DNA from: Acinetobacter sp. NCu2D-2
GTDB taxonomy: Bacteria; Pseudomonadota; Gammaproteobacteria; Pseudomonadales; Moraxellaceae
Reading direction: 5' to 3'
DNA: 64,000 nucleotides
Assembly: GCF_001647675.1 (NCBI RefSeq)
Contig: NZ_CP015594.1
Span: 744,001-808,000, forward strand
The notes under the pieces are model-generated. The model was given only the letters and a program-made list of their open reading frames with translations. It did no database searches and was not told where the DNA came from. Shown here in pieces: positions 5,977 through 50,248 of the stretch (positions are counted from its first letter, which is position 1; the number at the start of each line of letters is the position of its first letter). The translations under genes and the position numbers were made by a program.

Positions 5977-7602
5977 TTAGAGACCTGCTTTCCAACCATT
6001 TACGATTGGATAGCGACGTTCACGGCTAAAGGCACGTGAACTGATGCGAGGACCAATCGCACCTTGACGACGTTTATATTCATTAAAGTCGACCAAACGA
6101 ATTACCTTTTTCACAACTTCAGCGTCGAAGCCTTTGGCAATAATGTCGTCTTGACTCATATCTTCTTCAATATATGCATAAAGAATTGCATCAAGTACAT
6201 CGTAAGCAGGTAATGAGTCTTGGTCAGTTTGATCTGGACGAAGTTCAGCTGAAGGTGGGCGAGTAATGACACGTTCAGGAATTACAGGTGTCTCAGAAAT
6301 GCTATTACGGTATTTTGCAAGTTCAAATACAATGGTTTTATAAACATCTTTAAGTACAGCAAAACCACCGACCATATCACCATAGAGTGTGCAGTAACCG
6401 ACAGAAAGTTCAGACTTGTTACCTGTTGAAAGCACTAAATTACCGAATTTATTCGATAACGCCATCAACAAAGTACCACGTGAACGTGCCTGTAAGTTTT
6501 CTTCAGTTGAGTCAGCTGGCGCATCACCGAAGAATGGGAACAGGGTTTGCATGAAGCCATTCACAATCGGATTGATTTCTGCAATACCAAAGGTCACACC
6601 AAGTGCTTTTGCTTGAGCTGCTGCATCTTCAACACTAATTTGTGCTGTGTAGGTGTATGGCATCATGACTGCCTGAACTTTATCTGCACCAATTGCATCA
6701 ACCGCAATGGCAAGTGTTAATGCTGAATCGATACCGCCTGATAAGCCAAGAATCACACCAGGGAAACCTGAGCGTTGTACATAGTCACGTGTTGCAACCA
6801 CAAGGCTTTGATAAATCTCAGCCATCGTTTCGAGTACAGGCGTGATGTTGCCTTTGCTATACTCTTGTTGTTCAGGGTTAAATTCAACAATGTACTGATC
6901 TTCTTTGAAGCTTGGTGCTTGTAAAGCGATTTCACCAGACTTGTTCAATACAAAACTTGTACCGTCAAAGACAAGGTCATCCTGTCCACCCACTTGGTTA
7001 CAGTAAACCAAATTGATGTTGAGCTGTTTTGCCAAAGCTGACATGGTGTCAATACGGTGCTGAGGTTTACCTACTTCATACGGAGATGAATTAAGTACCA
7101 AAGCAGTATCGACATTTAATTGAGCCAACTGTTGAACAGTAGTCAGTGACCAAACATCTTCACAAATTAGTACACCAAATTTATGTCCAAGATATTCAAA
7201 GACTAAATGTTGGTGACCTTCAGTGAAGTAACGTTTTTCATCGAACACGCTGTAGTTTGGCAAAGTCTGCTTGTTATATACACCTAAGACTTGACCATCT
7301 TTCATCACAGCTGCTGAGTTAAAGCGTTGACCGTCTTCAGTCACATTCACAAAGCCAAACACCATCAAAATATCTTTCACTTCAGAAAGTTGTTTGAATG
7401 CCTGTTCAGTACGTTTGGTTACGCTTGGGCGAATCAATAAATCTTCAGCAGGATAACCAATGGTTGAAAGTTCAGGGAAGATAATAATGTCAGCGTTATC
7501 TTTTTTAGCCTGATTGGCTTGTTCAATCATTTTTTGGGTATTTGCGTCTATATTGCCCACATGTGGAGAGAATTGAGCAAGGGCAATTTTAAAACTTTTC
7601 AT
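5977..7602 (-). CDS. nadE: Glutamine-dependent NAD+ synthetase
   Basis: 541-residue two-domain enzyme making NAD+ from nicotinic acid adenine dinucleotide, ATP and glutamine, the last step of NAD synthesis. The N-terminal nitrilase-type glutaminase shows the Glu-Lys-Cys triad: E44 in FPELS, K111 in NKQTLP, C147 in LICEDVW. The C-terminal synthetase has the PP-loop SGGIDS (288-293). The glutaminase domain distinguishes it from the short ammonia-only NadE of E. coli. It is a single gene with its own terminator. Confidence 0.97.
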   Translation of the reverse strand: MKSFKIALAQFSPHVGNIDANTQKMIEQANQAKKDNADIIIFPELSTIGYPAEDLLIRPSVTKRTEQAFKQLSEVKDILMVFGFVNVTEDGQRFNSAAVMKDGQVLGVYNKQTLPNYSVFDEKRYFTEGHQHLVFEYLGHKFGVLICEDVWSLTTVQQLAQLNVDTALVLNSSPYEVGKPQHRIDTMSALAKQLNINLVYCNQVGGQDDLVFDGTSFVLNKSGEIALQAPSFKEDQYIVEFNPEQQEYSKGNITPVLETMAEIYQSLVVATRDYVQRSGFPGVILGLSGGIDSALTLAIAVDAIGADKVQAVMMPYTYTAQISVEDAAAQAKALGVTFGIAEINPIVNGFMQTLFPFFGDAPADSTEENLQARSRGTLLMALSNKFGNLVLSTGNKSELSVGYCTLYGDMVGGFAVLKDVYKTIVFELAKYRNSISETPVIPERVITRPPSAELRPDQTDQDSLPAYDVLDAILYAYIEEDMSQDDIIAKGFDAEVVKKVIRLVDFNEYKRRQGAIGPRISSRAFSRERRYPIVNGWKAGL

Positions 7603-7951
7603 TCCAACTAAATCCTATTCCTATAGGTGAATACACTAGGTCACTGATTTTTATAATTCTAGTTATTCAGCTGAGTGCACTTTGTTACTAACAATATGCC
7701 AAATGGCCAAAATTAAAAAAACATCATTTTTGTATGATATTTAAGTCTTCATTAACAGAGCTAAAATATCAGACTCGACTTATTTTATCGAAATTTGCTT
7801 GAGATGCTAGCAATGTTTTGATTGTTTTATGGAACTTAACATTGAAACGCAATAAAAGTTGATAAAACTGTGATGAAAATGGAATAAATCAAATGAAAGA
7901 TTAAGAGAAAATGACATAAATTCAGTGATTATTTCTTTTGAGTATTCATTG
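7603..7951. other. Gene-free 349 bp stretch, nadE upstream region
   Basis: AT-rich spacer between nadE (start at the left end) and the C-terminus of the HExxH gene, both on the minus strand. It must hold the nadE promoter. I see no RNA gene, strong hairpin or credible coding sequence. Confidence 0.5.
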
Positions 7952-8467
7952 CTACATAGAATGTGCTGAGTCATTCAAAATAATATTGGGGATTTTTTTG
8001 AGAAAAATATCACGTGCAATATCACCTTGCTGCTCAATATTATAATCCCAGTAAGATTTATTCGCCTCAAGCGTATAGGCATATGGGTTATAGCGTTTGA
8101 AACTCAAAAAATAAGCACTTTGTAATAGGGCGCCTTTCAATAGAACATTGATGTTTTTTTGGTATTGTAAAATATGTGCCATTTCATGAATAAACAATGC
8201 CTGATAGCTCAAAGATTCTTTTGAGTAATCCGCCTTAAAGTGAAAGGCACGAGCATGAATGAATCCGCTGGGTGCCATAATCACATCTCTCGCTTGCCAA
8301 GGTAGGTAAGGATGATTCATAACATAGACATCCGAATAGCGAATCAAATCTCCAAAAACCTGTCTGCACAGTTGTACTTCACCTGATGTTAAAGATCGCC
8401 CTTTAAATTTTGAAAAACGAATCAGACGAAGTAATACGTAAAGCAGAAAACTTGGCATAGCAGACAT
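7952..8467 (-). CDS. Putative zinc-binding HExxH protein
   Basis: 171-residue protein without a firm family assignment. Residues 94-98 read HEMAH within ALFIHEMAHILQYQ, a gluzincin-like zinc motif, and a candidate third ligand Glu lies at about 145 in DYNIEQQGD. The N-terminus is hydrophobic then basic (MSAMPSFLLYVLLRLIRF), which could be a membrane anchor but is not a clean signal peptide. The layout resembles small proteins annotated as Vgr-related or metallopeptidase-like in other proteobacteria. No secretion genes are nearby, so function remains open. Confidence 0.6.
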   Translation of the reverse strand: MSAMPSFLLYVLLRLIRFSKFKGRSLTSGEVQLCRQVFGDLIRYSDVYVMNHPYLPWQARDVIMAPSGFIHARAFHFKADYSKESLSYQALFIHEMAHILQYQKNINVLLKGALLQSAYFLSFKRYNPYAYTLEANKSYWDYNIEQQGDIARDIFLKKIPNIILNDSAHSM

Positions 8468-43918: not shown

Positions 43919-44031
43919 TTCTTGATAAAAAAGTACGATTTCAATAAAAAATAGAGTAAAATTTGAGACATAAGTTTGATCTAGATTAAAAAATGCAAAC
44001 AGGGTGTCATTTTTTATTAAAAAATTGATTA

Positions 44032-44888
44032 GGGTCTGTTGACATTTGTTGCTTAAAAAAATAGCGAGGTAGTAAAATTAAATCGCCAAACCCAATTTTA
44101 CTCTCGCTATGCCTCGTACAATGCTGAATGATCAACACTGGTCTAAGTTACTTTCTATTTTCCGAAATTTTGATATCTATTTCAAATCTAATTTGAGAAA
44201 TTTTGTCGAAGCCATACTTTATAGAATAAGAACAGGCTGTCCTTGGCGTGATTTGCCTAAAGAATTTGGTTCGTATAACTCAATATTTAAAAAATATAAT
44301 CGTTGGTGTAAAAATGATAAGCTAATGAAAGTATTTAAATTAATTTCTTCAAATGCTGATATGGAATGGGTTTTTATTGACGGTAGTCATGTTCGGGCAC
44401 ACCAACATTCTGCTGGAATAAAAGATCAGGATATTTCTAAAAGCATTGGTGGAAATAGTTCTAAAATACACTTAGCTGTTGATGCAGATGGCAATCCAAT
44501 TGAAATTATTATCTCCGATGGAACGACGCATGACGTCAAGATTGCTCCAAAAATGATTGAAAAACTGGATTTGAGTGAAACGGAAGTATGTTGTGCAGAC
44601 AAGGGATATGACTCTGAATCATTAAGGGAACAAATATCTGCGAAAAAAACTAAAGCTAATATTCCAAGAAAATCAAATACACAGTCAAATAATGACCATA
44701 TGGATTGGTATTTATATAAAATCAGGCACTTAGTTGAGAATGCATTTTGTAGGTTAAAGCAGTTCAGAGGAATAGCAACACGATATGATAAGCTAAAGTG
44801 TAGCTATGAGGGTGCAGTTGCATTAGCTTGTGTATTTATTTGGCTACCTTTATCGGGTAAATTCTATACTTGAAATGTCAACAGACCC
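44032..44888 (+). mobile_element. IS5-family insertion sequence, complete
   Basis: Bounded by perfect 16 bp inverted repeats starting GGGTCTGTTGACATTT (44032-44047; complement at 44873-44888) and flanked by TA on both sides (44030-44031 and 44889-44890). The flanking A/T pairs also extend the symmetry by one base. About 857 bp with one transposase gene. The TA target duplication and layout suggest the IS427-like subgroup, by recall only. It inserted downstream of groEL and breaks no recognised gene. Confidence 0.85.
44109..44873 (+). CDS. IS5-family transposase
   Basis: 254-residue DDE transposase. The acidic residues lie in FIDGSHVRAHQ, CCADKGYDSE and VENAFCRLKQFRGIATRYDK, the last being the typical E-x6-K/R-type motif. 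The N-terminal ILYRIRTGCPWRDLPKEFG is an IS5/IS427-type DUF4096-like segment. The reading frame is intact, without the programmed frameshift used by many relatives. Its stop overlaps the right inverted repeat. Confidence 0.9.
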   Translation: MPRTMLNDQHWSKLLSIFRNFDIYFKSNLRNFVEAILYRIRTGCPWRDLPKEFGSYNSIFKKYNRWCKNDKLMKVFKLISSNADMEWVFIDGSHVRAHQHSAGIKDQDISKSIGGNSSKIHLAVDADGNPIEIIISDGTTHDVKIAPKMIEKLDLSETEVCCADKGYDSESLREQISAKKTKANIPRKSNTQSNNDHMDWYLYKIRHLVENAFCRLKQFRGIATRYDKLKCSYEGAVALACVFIWLPLSGKFYT

Positions 44889-44962
44889 TAATGTTTATTT
44901 TTGTAACATTTGATCTTGGAATATATAGATTTTTGGTTTATGATTTAATCAAAATATAATTG

Positions 44963-45160
44963 ATGTGCGGCTATATGAACAGTACAGTTATAAATAATGA
45001 GGGGAAAAGTTCAGAGGATCATTCTGAATTGGTATTGATTAGTAAATGTGAATTAAAGTCTTTATACCGAAAATTAAAGGAATATGAAGATCGTTTACGG
45101 AGGTATGAGCATGAGCATAAAAAAATTTTAGCTTATTTCACGCATAAAAATTACAATTGA
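44963..45160 (+). CDS. Small coiled-coil hypothetical protein
   Basis: About 65-residue protein, mostly polar, with a helical heptad-like stretch LKSLYRKLKEYEDRLRRYEHEHKK. No family is recognised. No strong ribosome site precedes ATG 44963 or ATG 44975, so the start is uncertain. Its last nine codons lie in the first copy of a 25 bp tandem repeat, which also supplies the stop. It converges on the HTH gene. It may be a real but minor gene. Confidence 0.4.
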   Translation: MCGYMNSTVINNEGKSSEDHSELVLISKCELKSLYRKLKEYEDRLRRYEHEHKKILAYFTHKNYN

Positions 45161-45210
45161 TTTCACGCATAAAAATTACAATTGATTTCACGCATAAAAA
45201 TTACAATTGA
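45136..45210. repeat. Three perfect 25 bp tandem repeats
   Basis: Unit TTTCACGCATAAAAATTACA plus ATTGA occurs at 45136-45160, 45161-45185 and 45186-45210 with no mismatch. It fills the space between two convergent genes. Each copy carries a stop for the plus gene's frame and TTACAATTG, which is the minus gene's stop. Confidence 0.95.
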
Positions 45211-45581
45211 TTTAACTCATCAATCAACTTTTTAATGATATCTTTATGATGATTTTTTAAAGCGCGAAACTTCAGATAATAGTCTAGATCTCCAGCATCG
45301 TGTTCTGAAATCTGGGCACTAGGATTAATATCTTGGTCTCCAAATCTTAGCCATTGATTAGATACATTTAACCAAATCGCTAAAATAGAGAGTTTATCTT
45401 GGCTAGGGATGGCCTTACCTAATAACCAGTTATTTGCAGTTTGAACACTAATAGATTTCCCATTATAACGCAGATTGAATTCCCGCGCTAACCATGTTGG
45501 ACTAATTTTGGCCCAATCATAATTTGAAAGGGTCTGTTTCAATCGTTGGCTAAATGCCAATTTTTCATTCATTTCTTGCAT
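45201..45581 (-). CDS. Putative HTH transcriptional regulator
   Basis: 126-residue protein. A Cro/CI-like helix-turn-helix is suggested by ISPTWLAREFNLRYNGKSISVQTANNWLLGKAIPS-like spacing (about residues 25-60): the helix SPTWLAREFN and the recognition-helix-like SVQTANNWLLG. The tail (HKDIIKKLIDELNQL) is helical. It is divergent from the large surface-protein gene across 291 bases, which makes it a candidate local regulator. Two starts are possible (45581 or the next Met at 45572). Confidence 0.65.
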   Translation of the reverse strand: MQEMNEKLAFSQRLKQTLSNYDWAKISPTWLAREFNLRYNGKSISVQTANNWLLGKAIPSQDKLSILAIWLNVSNQWLRFGDQDINPSAQISEHDAGDLDYYLKFRALKNHHKDIIKKLIDELNQL

Positions 45582-45872
45582 AAAAAAAGCTTAGCCTATC
45601 CCAACCATCCTAAAAATAAAAAAATTATTTTAGAAATAAATAATTATAAAGCTTATTGGGGGTATGTGGTTAATATTTCGATAAGTTTTATATGATTTTT
45701 GTAGTAAAGAAAGAAAAAGGATAAAGAAAAAATTATTTTTTATAAAATTATGATTGATAAATTCTTAAAGCAAAATTAGAATCAAGCTGAAACATAACCT
45801 GAACAAATTGGGTCATTAAAGAGGGTTGTAAATACAACTTCTCTGGAAAAACGTAATAAAAGGAACCGTATA

Positions 45873-48800
45873 ATGAGTTTACATTTGAAAAAAACATCTA
45901 TCGCATTAGCAGTTGCTGCTGTTACAGGGACGACATTTGCTGCGCCAACAGCAACATACCAACCAGCAGTAGATGCCGAGTTGGGTACTAACTACCAACA
46001 AACAACTGGTACGACTGAAACTACCACACCATCTACTGGTACTACTGTTACTGTTTCTAAGGAAGATATTGCTACGGGTGACCTTGTAAGTGCAACAACC
46101 CCTGCAATTAATGGCCCTGAAGTTCAGATTGGTGGGATTAACTATCGTAATTATAGCTATCAGGAAATCCGTAAAGGGCTTTTAGAAGCACGTAACGATA
46201 AAGAATCAAATACGACTGCCGCTGACGGTACAAATACAGTTTCTGAAAGCTGGGATACAACAACAGCAACAGGTCAGGCGAAGCGTACGGCAAATACACG
46301 TATTCAACTGGATAAAACGATTAATCCTGCAACTGAAATTGCTGGAACAAAAGAACGTTTAGATGATAGTTCATTTGACTTTACAAATGATGATGTCAAT
46401 ACAGTTATAGATGCTCGTACAACAAGTGATAAGGGTTCTTCTGAAGAGATCGTTTATGCAGCAGCTGATGAGCGTATTAACTCTAGCAAGTTCCAAAATA
46501 CAACTTCTGATTTAACAACAAAAGCAAAATTAGGAACTGATGGAAAACCTATTGCTGGTCAAACTATTCGTGTAGGTACTGTTGAAAATAAATTTACTGA
46601 AAATAATGTTTATTATAAGAGTACAACAGATGCAAATGGTGTAACGACGAGCAAAAATGCAAGTGGTCTTTTATCTAGTGAGGAGTGGAGTTCAGCAGTT
46701 CACGATGTTTCTGAAAATTATCAAGTTAACCCAACAAACAATGTTGTTGCGTTTAATTTAAGTGCGGATAAAAAAACGCTTCTTGAGTCAACTGTAAATA
46801 CAAATAAATCAGCATTTAGCTCTAAAGATGTAGATTATGATGATGTAAATGCAGCTGGATTAGCTTCCACAGAAGAAACAAAATGGTCATATGATAACTC
46901 TCAAGAAAGCTTGTTAGATGGTTTCGTGAGTGTTGATAAAGGTTCAAATGAAACCAGTGAAACACAATATAACCAAGCTGCTTTAGGTACTAAAAATGCT
47001 TTAGATTATATTGAGACGTCTAAATCAAGCACTGAGACTAAAACACGTGATTTTGTAAAAAATGCTGATGGTGAAATTGTATTAACAGCAGGCAAACCAA
47101 CTGTTAATACTGAAACTGAAACTAAAACTACCAATGAGACGTATGATTCAGTTTATCAACCAACACGTTACACAGCGGATGATGCTGATAAAGGCATTAC
47201 AAAAGGTGATGCTTATAAAGATCATATCGAGAATAGTGCAGAAAACTGGTGGTATCAAGATACAAATGTTCAAAAATCTACAAATAAAGGTACATCAAGT
47301 ACTGTTGTAACTCATAAACAAGATGCAGATTTTAAAGAGCATTGGAATACCTCATGGGACAATAGCGCAGTTTATGCACGTAACCATCAAGAAAATATTG
47401 AAGTAGATCGCGATATTTCTAACTCTTGGGCGGAAGATAATAAATATTTAGCCAAAATCGAAGGCGTTTCTGTTGTAAAACAAGCGGAAGAGGCTAACTT
47501 CCAAATTGGTACAGTCGCTGTTGATGTAAATGGCAATAAATTTGATTCTAGTGATGTACACACTTGGAAAGATGAAACAGGTAAAGAGCGCTACTATGTT
47601 TTACTTGATAATGATGCAAATGGTAATCAAGTTCGTAGTGAAGTAACTTTCAAAGATGGTAAACCACTTGAAACTAAAGCGGCTGAAATTCAAACTGTTA
47701 AAACAGAAGTATATTCTGAAAAACGTACCGACAAAGTAACAATGGGTGCAGAAGTTGCTTATCAAACCAATGAAAAAGAAACTTGGGATGAAAAGACTAC
47801 ATCGAAAGATGGTGCTACAGTTTATGCAGCTGATAAAGGTAGTGACGAAACCAATGTTAAAGTCTTCTCGGTAGGTAAAAATGCCCTTCACCGTGAATCT
47901 GTAACAACGGAATCTAGTGAATCTGTAGAGACTCAATTTGATCAGTTAAATGGTGATATTCTATTTGCTGATGGTAAGCCAGTTGTGCTTTCTGTTGAAT
48001 CTACTAAAACAGCAAGCAATGAAATTGATCGTTTATTCCAAGAGGGTCAAGATAAAACTCGTGAAAATATTTCGACATCTTCTTTTGAAGGAAATGTTAA
48101 GAATGCAGCTGGCGTAGTTCAAACAACATACAAAGGTCATGATAACTGGACAGATGTTGACTATGCAGCAGGTAAAGAGTTAGCGAATACTTTTGTTCAA
48201 GATCAAGCTTTTGAAGTAACTGCAAAAGCGGTAACTAATAATGTTGGCTTTAATTACGATGGTACTGCAAAAGCAAACATCGACAGTAATACATTACGTG
48301 ATAGTGGTACTGTTGATGCAGGTTTAGCCGTTAAAAATGCTCAAGCAGGTGAGATTGTTGTTGACACTAAGTTAGATACTTCTAACAAAGAAGACACCAA
48401 AACTTATCAAGATGGTGGTGTTAAAGCATTAGAAAGCACTCAAGTACAAACGAATGTTCAAACTGTCACTTATGCAGATGCTACAACAGGTACGGTTAAG
48501 GATAATCAAGCGTCTACTGTAACTTTATTTAATAAAGGCAAAGCAGATAAATATCGTGAAGCAGTTAATACAACTGACTCAGAAACAACAGCTAAAACTT
48601 ATAAGACTGATGCTGACGGTGATATCGTCTTAGTTGATGGTAAGCCAGTTGAATCAGGTACAAATAGTTACAAACAAACAGTCACAACCTCTGAAAATCT
48701 TTACCAAATTGGTCAAGAGCGTAAAGCTGATACAGTTGTAGTAACAGATACATCAGAAAAAACTGCAAATGTAGATGGTTCTGGCCGTGATTTTACTGCT

Positions 48801-49706
48801 AAAGCAACTACAGAAAACGTTGAATACCGTTCTGGTCAAAAAGACGGTAAAGAGACTGAGCTTAACACAACTAATGCAAGTGAGTTAAAAGTTACAAAAG
48901 CTGATAATACTGGTTACACTTATAAAGAGGACCGTAAAACTAGCAATGTAACGAATGAAACTGAAATGCATTTACTTGCAAATCGTGAGGTGAAATCTGT
49001 AGGAAAAACTGAATGGACTGAATCACTTGCAGCTTCTGGAAAAAATGCAGTAAGCATTACTCGTGGTACAGAGTTCGTAAATCGTACAGATGAAAGCTCT
49101 ACTGACACTATTTATGGTTCTGAAACGGTAACTGCGGCAACGGGTACAACTACTGTTGCGAAGAAAGAAGTTGATGTAATTGACAAGTTTGGAACTTTCG
49201 AGTCTTCTACGCTTAGCCGTACAGAAACTAAAGTTGCTGCTGACAAGTCTGCTACAAGTAATACAGCAACTCGTGTTGATTCAGTGAATGGTGTTGTATT
49301 AAATGCAACTCAAACGAACACAGACGTAGCAGGTAAAACGGTTACTTCTACTCGTACAACATCGTTAAATGCAACAACTGGTTTAACAACTGACCAAATT
49401 ACTTTAAATGGTAAAGATCTACAAACAGAACTTAACCGTATGGGTAATAACATTGATAAAGTACAGAAAACTGCTTACCGTGGTATTGCAATTGCGTTAG
49501 CTGCACAACAAGCTGTACCTAACATTGCTCCAGGTCAAGTTGCTGTATTTGGTGGTGTAGGTCATTATGAAGGTGAAACTGCTGGTTCTATCGGTGTAGT
49601 TACATCATTCACTGATCGTATCTCTGCAAGCGGTGCTTTTGGTTTCGCGAGTGGTAATGAGTTTGGTGGTCGTGTAGGTGTTGCTTACGTGTTTGGCGGA
49701 AAATAA
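45873..49706 (+). CDS. YadA-anchored trimeric autotransporter-like surface protein
   Basis: 1277 residues. A short signal peptide ends near residue 24 (VTGTTFA/AP), without the extended signal region of many large adhesins. The C-terminus (about 1185-1277) has the helix LNRMGNNIDKVQKTAYRGIA, a glycine-rich barrel and the end VAYVFGGK, matching the YadA trimer anchor. The passenger is rich in Thr, Asn, Asp, Glu and Lys, with no Cys. Three diverged modules (about 355-428, 654-723, 887-945) share DKGS-E, ALxxxE, S-E-T, DG-I-L-x-x-GKP and a final YQ/FQ. DGKP also recurs near residues 226 and 598. No SVAIG-type head repeats were seen. AAAAGGA precedes the ATG. It is probably a surface adhesin; the ligand is unknown. 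Confidence 0.85.
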   Translation: MSLHLKKTSIALAVAAVTGTTFAAPTATYQPAVDAELGTNYQQTTGTTETTTPSTGTTVTVSKEDIATGDLVSATTPAINGPEVQIGGINYRNYSYQEIRKGLLEARNDKESNTTAADGTNTVSESWDTTTATGQAKRTANTRIQLDKTINPATEIAGTKERLDDSSFDFTNDDVNTVIDARTTSDKGSSEEIVYAAADERINSSKFQNTTSDLTTKAKLGTDGKPIAGQTIRVGTVENKFTENNVYYKSTTDANGVTTSKNASGLLSSEEWSSAVHDVSENYQVNPTNNVVAFNLSADKKTLLESTVNTNKSAFSSKDVDYDDVNAAGLASTEETKWSYDNSQESLLDGFVSVDKGSNETSETQYNQAALGTKNALDYIETSKSSTETKTRDFVKNADGEIVLTAGKPTVNTETETKTTNETYDSVYQPTRYTADDADKGITKGDAYKDHIENSAENWWYQDTNVQKSTNKGTSSTVVTHKQDADFKEHWNTSWDNSAVYARNHQENIEVDRDISNSWAEDNKYLAKIEGVSVVKQAEEANFQIGTVAVDVNGNKFDSSDVHTWKDETGKERYYVLLDNDANGNQVRSEVTFKDGKPLETKAAEIQTVKTEVYSEKRTDKVTMGAEVAYQTNEKETWDEKTTSKDGATVYAADKGSDETNVKVFSVGKNALHRESVTTESSESVETQFDQLNGDILFADGKPVVLSVESTKTASNEIDRLFQEGQDKTRENISTSSFEGNVKNAAGVVQTTYKGHDNWTDVDYAAGKELANTFVQDQAFEVTAKAVTNNVGFNYDGTAKANIDSNTLRDSGTVDAGLAVKNAQAGEIVVDTKLDTSNKEDTKTYQDGGVKALESTQVQTNVQTVTYADATTGTVKDNQASTVTLFNKGKADKYREAVNTTDSETTAKTYKTDADGDIVLVDGKPVESGTNSYKQTVTTSENLYQIGQERKADTVVVTDTSEKTANVDGSGRDFTAKATTENVEYRSGQKDGKETELNTTNASELKVTKADNTGYTYKEDRKTSNVTNETEMHLLANREVKSVGKTEWTESLAASGKNAVSITRGTEFVNRTDESSTDTIYGSETVTAATGTTTVAKKEVDVIDKFGTFESSTLSRTETKVAADKSATSNTATRVDSVNGVVLNATQTNTDVAGKTVTSTRTTSLNATTGLTTDQITLNGKDLQTELNRMGNNIDKVQKTAYRGIAIALAAQQAVPNIAPGQVAVFGGVGHYEGETAGSIGVVTSFTDRISASGAFGFASGNEFGGRVGVAYVFGGK

Positions 49707-49734
49707 TTAACCCGTTGGTACATTTGGATTAAAC

Positions 49735-49765
49735 AAAAAATCCCCGCTTTTGCGGGGATTTTTTA
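49735..49765. terminator. Bidirectional terminator: surface protein / NlpE-like gene
   Basis: TCCCCGC/GCGGGGA stem, loop TTTT, A-run left and T-run right, between convergent genes. Confidence 0.92.
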
Positions 49766-50248
49766 TTCAGGCTGTTTCATTAATTTATAATTTAAATTTG
49801 AGTCAATTTTATTGCCACTTTCTAGTTCACGTGCTTCTAAGAAATTTTCACCCACTAAGAATTTACGATTTTCCGCTTTATCATCTAGGCTAATGATAGA
49901 GGGATTTTGTGCATCAAAACTAAAGCTGCCTTTTACTTCAAATTCATTTTTAGCTTTCGTTCCTAAATACTCTTGATTTAATTCATAGGTTTTATCGGCA
50001 TTAAGCTGTAATTCAATTTGAATGCCTTCGCAATCTGCACAAGGGAACACACCCTCATATTCACCGACCCAATTTAAATCGGTTTCGGCACTATTTATGC
50101 GTGTAGGCAATGATTTGCTTTGCTCAGAGGTTGATGTTGATTGCTCTAATTCGCTTTCTTTCAGTGGTGCTGAACCATTATTTTGTGAACACGCAATCAA
50201 TAATAAGCTCACGAGACCAAGGGTTGAAAACTTGAAGATCTGATTCAT
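49763..50248 (-). CDS. NlpE-like lipoprotein
   Basis: 161-residue predicted lipoprotein. The signal ends in a lipobox LIAC (Cys about 20). The mature domain begins VGEYEGVFPCADCEGIQIEL, the signature of the NlpE N-terminal domain with its CxxC metal/thiol site. E. coli NlpE senses surface contact and lipoprotein-trafficking faults through Cpx; only the N-terminal domain is present here. Standing beside a surface adhesin gene is suggestive but may be chance. Confidence 0.85.
   Translation of the reverse strand: MNQIFKFSTLGLVSLLLIACSQNNGSAPLKESELEQSTSTSEQSKSLPTRINSAETDLNWVGEYEGVFPCADCEGIQIELQLNADKTYELNQEYLGTKAKNEFEVKGSFSFDAQNPSIISLDDKAENRKFLVGENFLEARELESGNKIDSNLNYKLMKQPE

Follow-up and report, generated by a model that had tools for sequence, protein, structure and literature searches.

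This work concerns a surface-protein gene of Acinetobacter sp. NCu2D-2 that lies behind groEL, together with its neighbourhood, in a 64,000-nucleotide stretch of the genome (hereafter the window; all positions count from its first letter). The gene encodes a 1277-aa protein with a YadA-type membrane anchor. We read it as a type Vc fibre whose passenger is a predicted ladder of long antiparallel beta strands, whose production is probably controlled by a divergent helix-turn-helix (HTH) gene, and whose alleles are diversified by recombination. We assign this reading a probability of roughly 55%; its open frame, anchor, modules, family, mosaic alleles, slot and conserved site are shown here, the ladder is predicted, and the trimer, the packing of the ladders, the fibre length, adhesion and regulation are those of its parts that we infer. 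By its anchor the protein belongs to a known class, within which its passenger sets it apart as a variant; the probably regulated, passenger-swapping slot that holds the gene is an added finding. The gene and the parts of its product are as follows:

45873..49706, plus strand: YadA-anchored protein, 1277 aa (open reading frame coordinates and full-length homologues)
45873..45941, plus strand: probable signal peptide (residues 1-23), judged by eye to have an ordinary length; N-terminus conserved in the alignment
45942..49418, plus strand: passenger, residues 24-1182, predicted antiparallel meander with 42 long strands (AlphaFold2 models)
49419..49505, plus strand: predicted helix preceding the anchor, residues 1183-1211, low pLDDT (model)
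49527..49694, plus strand: YadA membrane anchor, residues 1219-1274, pLDDT ~50-60 in the model (Pfam and AtaA structure match)

The C-terminal part provides the class assignment. YadA_anchor (PF03895) was found at residues 1219-1274 with 38.5 bits (E 1.2e-9, cut-off 22.7), bearing out the original prediction, which had been made from the sequence by eye; it was the only family listed by Pfam at E up to 10, a listing from which the HMMER filters drop most weak matches. Neither NCBIfam nor PHROGs contributed a family at E up to 1. Among solved structures, significant matches were confined to the C-terminal part, the best being the AtaA domain 9vnj (E 5.7e-4, or 2.9e-4 with the family profile as query), and the passenger had no significant sequence match either as a single sequence or as a profile. 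No other YadA anchor was found in the same genome at E up to 0.001. At the opposite end, the protein starts with MSLHLKKTSIALAVAAVTGTTFA-A, which reads by eye as a signal peptide of ordinary length, in agreement with the earlier remark that no extended signal peptide is present. All 22 aligned family members terminate in FGG plus one residue (window 49692-49703); outer-membrane proteins usually end in a terminal aromatic residue, from which this ending departs.

The passenger comprises about 1160 residues. Residues 26-1180 contain 15.5% Thr, 1.0% Trp and no Cys, as expected from the earlier description of a Thr-rich, Cys-free sequence with scattered Trp. The reported lack of SVAIG-type head repeats also held: the YadA-type head families Hep_Hag and Ylhead, which represent such beta-roll repeats, had no Pfam match in the window protein at E up to 10, and no head domain was seen in any of the 22 members among families matched at E up to 0.1.

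AlphaFold2 monomer models were built for residues 26-623 (pLDDT 83.9, pTM 0.74) and 330-1277 (pLDDT 81.4, pTM 0.63), both from alignments of 35 rows, where identity between the query fragment and the other rows is 22-86%. Both models consist of consecutive long antiparallel strands arranged as a meander, and they give the same state to 268 of the 294 shared residues. Combined, they place 780 of 1157 residues (26-1182) in strands, with 42 strands of at least 9 residues (range 9-27, mean 16.5) and hardly any helix between them. Of the 41 connections, 27 are tight turns (2-7 residues) in which Gly, Ala, Asp and Lys are frequent. The family alignment, in which many Y, G and D columns are invariant, is consistent with these predicted strands. 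Insertions and deletions avoid them: 42 of 103 distinct events fall wholly inside a long strand, whereas 158 circular shifts gave 57.8 on average and never fewer than 45 (this test used 43 strands, with limits slightly different from those of the 42-strand count). Side-chain volume alternates slightly along the strands (+0.07, at the top of 300 shuffles), in a test that its control leaves uncalibrated.

Several results weigh against this fold. The remaining 14 connections span 10-40 residues, some at low confidence, so the ladder is not unbroken, and pLDDT drops below 50 at breaks such as residues 446-464 and 801-817, while the helix and anchor are modelled at only ~50-60. The two models are not independent, being monomers that share alignment rows, and AlphaFold2 can overstate repetitive beta structure. 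Covariation across hairpins was strongest for the predicted register of 17 compared, yet it was matched by 69 of 596 map offsets and is not significant; opposite charges at paired positions were matched by 30 of 596 offsets. Moreover, part of the second model superposes on outer-membrane barrels at 3.9-6.3 Å over 208-248 residues.

One alternative is that the ladder is an artefact, with a passenger that is largely disordered or coiled and a predictor misled by biased sequence. The composition is indeed biased, the covariation is not significant, and the strands show no alternation of hydropathy (lag 2 -0.03, against -0.13 to +0.08 in shuffles), a test that is uncalibrated because the anchor strands taken as control, too small a set, showed no clear alternation either. 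Set against this, most of the passenger is modelled with high confidence from alignments of 35 rows at 22-86% identity, indels avoid the strands and many columns are invariant; we consider an artefact quite unlikely. It is very improbable, in turn, that the passenger is a lipid-facing or barrel-like sheet similar to the apoB-100 belt or to an outer-membrane barrel. That idea draws on the local barrel superposition, the long connections and the uncalibrated hydropathy test. The structure search of the models did rank apoB-100 first, but PDB matches among the 50 best of each search reached TM values of at most 0.20 at 6-11% identity (absence from these Foldseek or VIA lists does not show a fold to be new), and the strands lack hydropathy alternation, although the anchor control lacks it too. 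The likeness to the apoB-100 beta belt (9bde, 9coo) is one of geometry only, a very long antiparallel meander at ~6-7% identity, and the window protein differs from it in being bacterial and anchored.

Three diverged modules are embedded in the predicted ladder:

46929..47165, plus strand: module 1, residues 353-431 (profile comparison, leave-one-out)
47826..48050, plus strand: module 2, residues 652-726 (profile comparison, leave-one-out)
48528..48716, plus strand: module 3, residues 886-948 (profile comparison, leave-one-out)

These repeats, first noticed by eye, were confirmed by profile comparison, with probabilities of 95-96% for modules 1 and 2, 97-98% for modules 2 and 3, and 68-83% for modules 1 and 3. 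In a leave-one-out search with profiles built on the 22-member alignment, each module of the window protein was recovered by the other two, with 14.0 bits for module 1, 33.1 for module 2 and 36.4 for module 3, compared with maxima of 10.0, 10.8 and 12.3 bits in 1100 composition shuffles of the passenger. Chance repeats were rejected as their source on these grounds. Over the other 21 members, the left-out module exceeded the best shuffle in 4 cases for module 1, in all 21 for module 2 and in 12 for module 3; thus, module 1 is weak, and module 3 has been lost or has diverged in part of the family. An additional copy was found in some members, for instance at residues 751-833 of P0019 and 275-329 of P0029. 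Residues 27-330, compared with the other segments by profile, gave nothing above 20% probability.

In the models each module is a hairpin with an enlarged turn: two strands, a connection of 15-16 residues that bears DG-x-I-x-L-x-x-GKP, and a further strand. The three connections of this length carrying the motif are those of the modules, and the closing YQ/FQ terminates a strand that runs into an xxGxx turn. The further DGKP motifs proposed near residues 226 and 598 are present, both in turns of the models. The original prediction of an undescribed, module-built architecture therefore stands in part. The absence of any Pfam, NCBIfam or PHROGs family from residues 30-1150 fits an undescribed architecture. 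The term "module-built" applies only in part, since the three modules are landmarks within a run of ~42 predicted strands. An unrelated monomeric fold, named beforehand as an outcome that would refute the prediction, keeps some probability, as the models are monomers and parts of them superpose on outer-membrane barrels.

The protein search, in which 7995 candidates within length limits were scored, listed 57 proteins including the window's own, every one with a YadA anchor. Among the 56 others, 36 (31-89% identity) match half of the query or more, and the remainder match shorter parts. All named full-length relatives are from Acinetobacter, some of them from A. junii. A scan of 144 genomes, with at most 4 candidates scored per genome, found matches in 27, all within the genus of the window, and the long form in six including the window's own (G000, G063, G064, G071, G073 and G087). 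The genome-contig scan, queried with two anchor motifs, named Acinetobacter sp. Ac_5812, A. proteolyticus, A. sichuanensis, sp. CFCC 10889, A. piscicola and sp. Marseille-Q1618 as long-form carriers, and it found a partial relative in Acinetobacter sp. ANC 3903. Its matches to the anchor alone, which show a shared C-terminus only, include one Psychrobacter and one Verrucomicrobia bin.

In the 22 aligned members, Pfam detected YadA_anchor in all and YadA_stalk in six; the latter, absent from the window protein, ties the family to trimeric autotransporters. Matches to TseB, AcrF2, DUF489 and FG-GAP_3 in one to three members were set aside as weak (best E 0.014-0.023), and ACE2 matches of the family profile (E 0.22-9.5) were taken as chance. 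A phage or plasmid origin of the passenger was rejected, as no PHROG was assigned and tblastn, run with an E threshold of 1e-3 on 50,697 phage and 72,556 plasmid records, found no match.

The alleles of this family are mosaic, as judged from their sequences. Mosaic pairs were sought with 80-residue windows over 231 member pairs, requiring at least 5 windows at ≥90% identity plus at least 4 at ≤60%, and five pairs were recovered. For instance, P0010 and P0026 have their first five windows in common (92-100%) and differ in the middle, whereas P0019 and P0026 share the middle (88-96%) and differ at the start. The window protein is 84-97% identical to P0026, an A. junii protein on a 3.27 Mb contig, over residues 1041-1277 and 26-34% identical over residues 641-1040. 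A reservation applies to the other mosaic partners, for which chimeric assembly is possible because their contigs are only 4.8-22 kb long. Such block exchange suggests selection for surface change, which may come from hosts, phages or competitors.

In all seven long-form loci read (L034, L037-L042) groEL is located upstream, and a divergent HTH gene lies between it and the fibre gene in six of them (not in L041). A strong match (>100 bits) to the HTH protein of the window was found in 19 of the 144 genomes, all 19 of which have a divergent YadA anchor within ~4.5 kb; the HTH gene lies at most 2.6 kb from groEL on the same contig in 18 of them, and G082 has groEL on another contig. At least two further genomes (G057 and G063) have an anchor beside groEL without the HTH gene. 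Open frames in the slot range from 552 to 1330 aa, plus one of 107 aa (G070). Passengers that are not of the long form match just the C-terminal part of the window protein; these matches start no earlier than residue 721 and in most cases beyond 1010. By eye, the passengers of L009 and L011 have coiled-coil-like repeats, those of L017 and L022-L024 are Thr-rich, and that of L007, a slot without the HTH gene, has YadA-type head repeats. Since the passengers differ in kind and match only C-terminally, one slot holds exchanged passengers.

The HTH gene and the region between it and the fibre gene contain three candidate regulatory features:

45201..45581, minus strand: divergent gene for a 126-aa HTH protein that probably regulates the fibre gene (HTH_3 similarity, co-occurrence)
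45742..45759, plus strand: operator-like 18-bp inverted repeat overlapping the -35 box, with two mismatches to the family pattern (intergenic comparison)
45754..45782, plus strand: promoter-like TTGATA-17-TAGAAT (separate promoter scan)

The HTH protein does not reach the curated cut-off for HTH_3 (17.3 bits against 23, E 0.0049), and its similarity to DicA and RstR is weak and below cut-off as well. The intergenic comparison used 18 regions, the window's included, out of 20, leaving out one duplicate and one region longer than 700 bp. The pattern ATCAARTWTTGATTGATA occurs exactly in 15 of them, with one mismatch in two and with two mismatches in the window; the omitted long region (L046) also holds an exact copy. 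Presence of the site in these regions is by construction, as the pattern was drawn from them, and the weight therefore lies on its rarity elsewhere. Altogether, 16 exact sites were found in the 144 genomes, of which 14 (in 13 genomes) lie between the HTH and fibre genes and two elsewhere, and a control with the reversed pattern gave none. Sites with up to two mismatches were absent from the HTH-less loci L041, L044, L051-L054, L056-L059, L061 and L065, and HTH-less L050 has one site with two mismatches ~4.6 kb ahead of the matched stretch. Besides its origin in the tested regions, two facts count against the proposed regulation: of the 19 genomes that match the HTH protein strongly, six have no exact site, and the window's own copy carries two mismatches. 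In this region promoter-like sites are fewer than in shuffles (5 against 12.8), and the match to TTGATA-17-TAGAAT alone proves nothing. Because the site overlaps the -35 box, the HTH protein is more likely to act as a repressor.

Other features of the slot vary between loci. In the window, an IS5-family insertion at ~44031-44891 (transposase 44109-44873, with matching end repeats) lies between groEL and the HTH gene, and this insertion is absent in the seven other long-form loci read. A 25-bp tandem repeat of 3.4 copies (window 45135-45220) follows the HTH gene and reaches into its end. Genes 3' of the fibre gene differ in most slot loci read, with L046 sharing several with the window. In the window these downstream features are:

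49732..49767, no strand assigned: inverted repeat past the stop codon that may serve as a terminator for the fibre gene and the convergent NlpE-like gene alike (inverted-repeat listing; not listed as terminator-like in a separate scan)
49763-50248: NlpE-like lipoprotein gene (PF04170), convergent, 3' of the fibre gene (Pfam)

In L044 (A. venetianus), a 245-aa secreted-looking protein (7398-8135) is encoded between groEL and a 628-aa YadA-anchored gene, and no HTH gene was found. Away from groEL, tandem pairs of YadA-anchored genes were read in L053, L054, L056 and L058 (501-617 aa), each with a small gene beginning MRAYSLDLRKKV or MRVYSLDLREKV upstream of the pair (4 of 4 loci); L050, L052, L059, L061 and L065 also appear to have such pairs, judged by match span only.

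Among known systems, AtaA/Ata, the type Vc protein of Acinetobacter, is closest, sharing the YadA anchor, a probable signal peptide and a predicted helix preceding the anchor. Its stalk, as described in PMC3498257, is likewise rich in beta structure and contains twelve Trp-rings made mainly of beta-meanders. The passenger studied here could accordingly be an ordinary trimeric autotransporter stalk, a diverged chain of short Trp-ring-like meanders beyond the reach of Pfam, and the AtaA domain (E 5.7e-4) is the closest solved relative of the anchor. On the other hand, the passenger has no significant match to solved structures, alone or as a profile, and its predicted strands of 9-27 residues (mean 16.5) are joined with hardly any intervening helix. 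We regard this explanation as unlikely, if still a credible one; assignment to known domains (daTAA) is the main way in which the protein could prove ordinary. The window protein further differs from AtaA in length (1277 against 3,630 aa, the latter from PMC3498257), in lacking a Pfam head or stalk family in its passenger, in a search that does not cover Trp-rings, and in location, beside groEL with an HTH gene, whereas ata is reported in a Lon-Ata-TpgA cluster (PMC6363060).

YadA of Yersinia shares the anchor domain family PF03895, but the window protein lacks a YadA-type head by Pfam and a long coiled-coil stalk in the models. A phage tail fibre model in BFVD (phiPMW) shares the long meander (E 3.3e-3, TM 0.16), and tail fibres are usually trimers; by sequence, in contrast, neither the phage records (E cut-off 1e-3) nor the PHROGs (E cut-off 1) gave a match to the window passenger. 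As summarized in a review (PMC6555100), type Vc passengers typically combine a coiled-coil stalk with a globular head.

In the proposed type Vc fibre, Sec would export the protein, and by homology the C-terminal anchor, with four strands per chain, and the preceding helix would form a 12-stranded trimer barrel through which the passenger exits. Outside the cell, each chain is predicted to fold into a nearly continuous ladder of ~42 long antiparallel strands. Because no hydrophobic face was apparent, the ladders of the three chains would probably pack against each other, giving a stiff fibre. Strands running crosswise to the fibre axis would make it of the order of 20 nm long (42 x 0.48 nm). 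The fibre most likely serves as an adhesin or recognition fibre, adhesion or recognition being the default function. Recombination would swap the N-terminal and middle blocks and leave the C-terminal stretch in place, and fibre production is probably timed by the divergent HTH protein, bound at the site that overlaps the -35 box. In its most specific form the proposal is tentative: a trimeric fibre of three ~42-strand ladders, with no close match in the structure searches made, may be produced from a dedicated groEL slot that swaps whole passengers between species and blocks between alleles, under one conserved HTH protein and operator.

A passenger family built as one long beta ladder, if true, would add a building plan to the type Vc set and offers a clear structural target. 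The slot itself is a testable system with one probable regulator, one site, one anchor and several passengers, in which exchange can be followed at fixed regulation. For Acinetobacter, it represents a surface locus distinct from the reported ata cluster.

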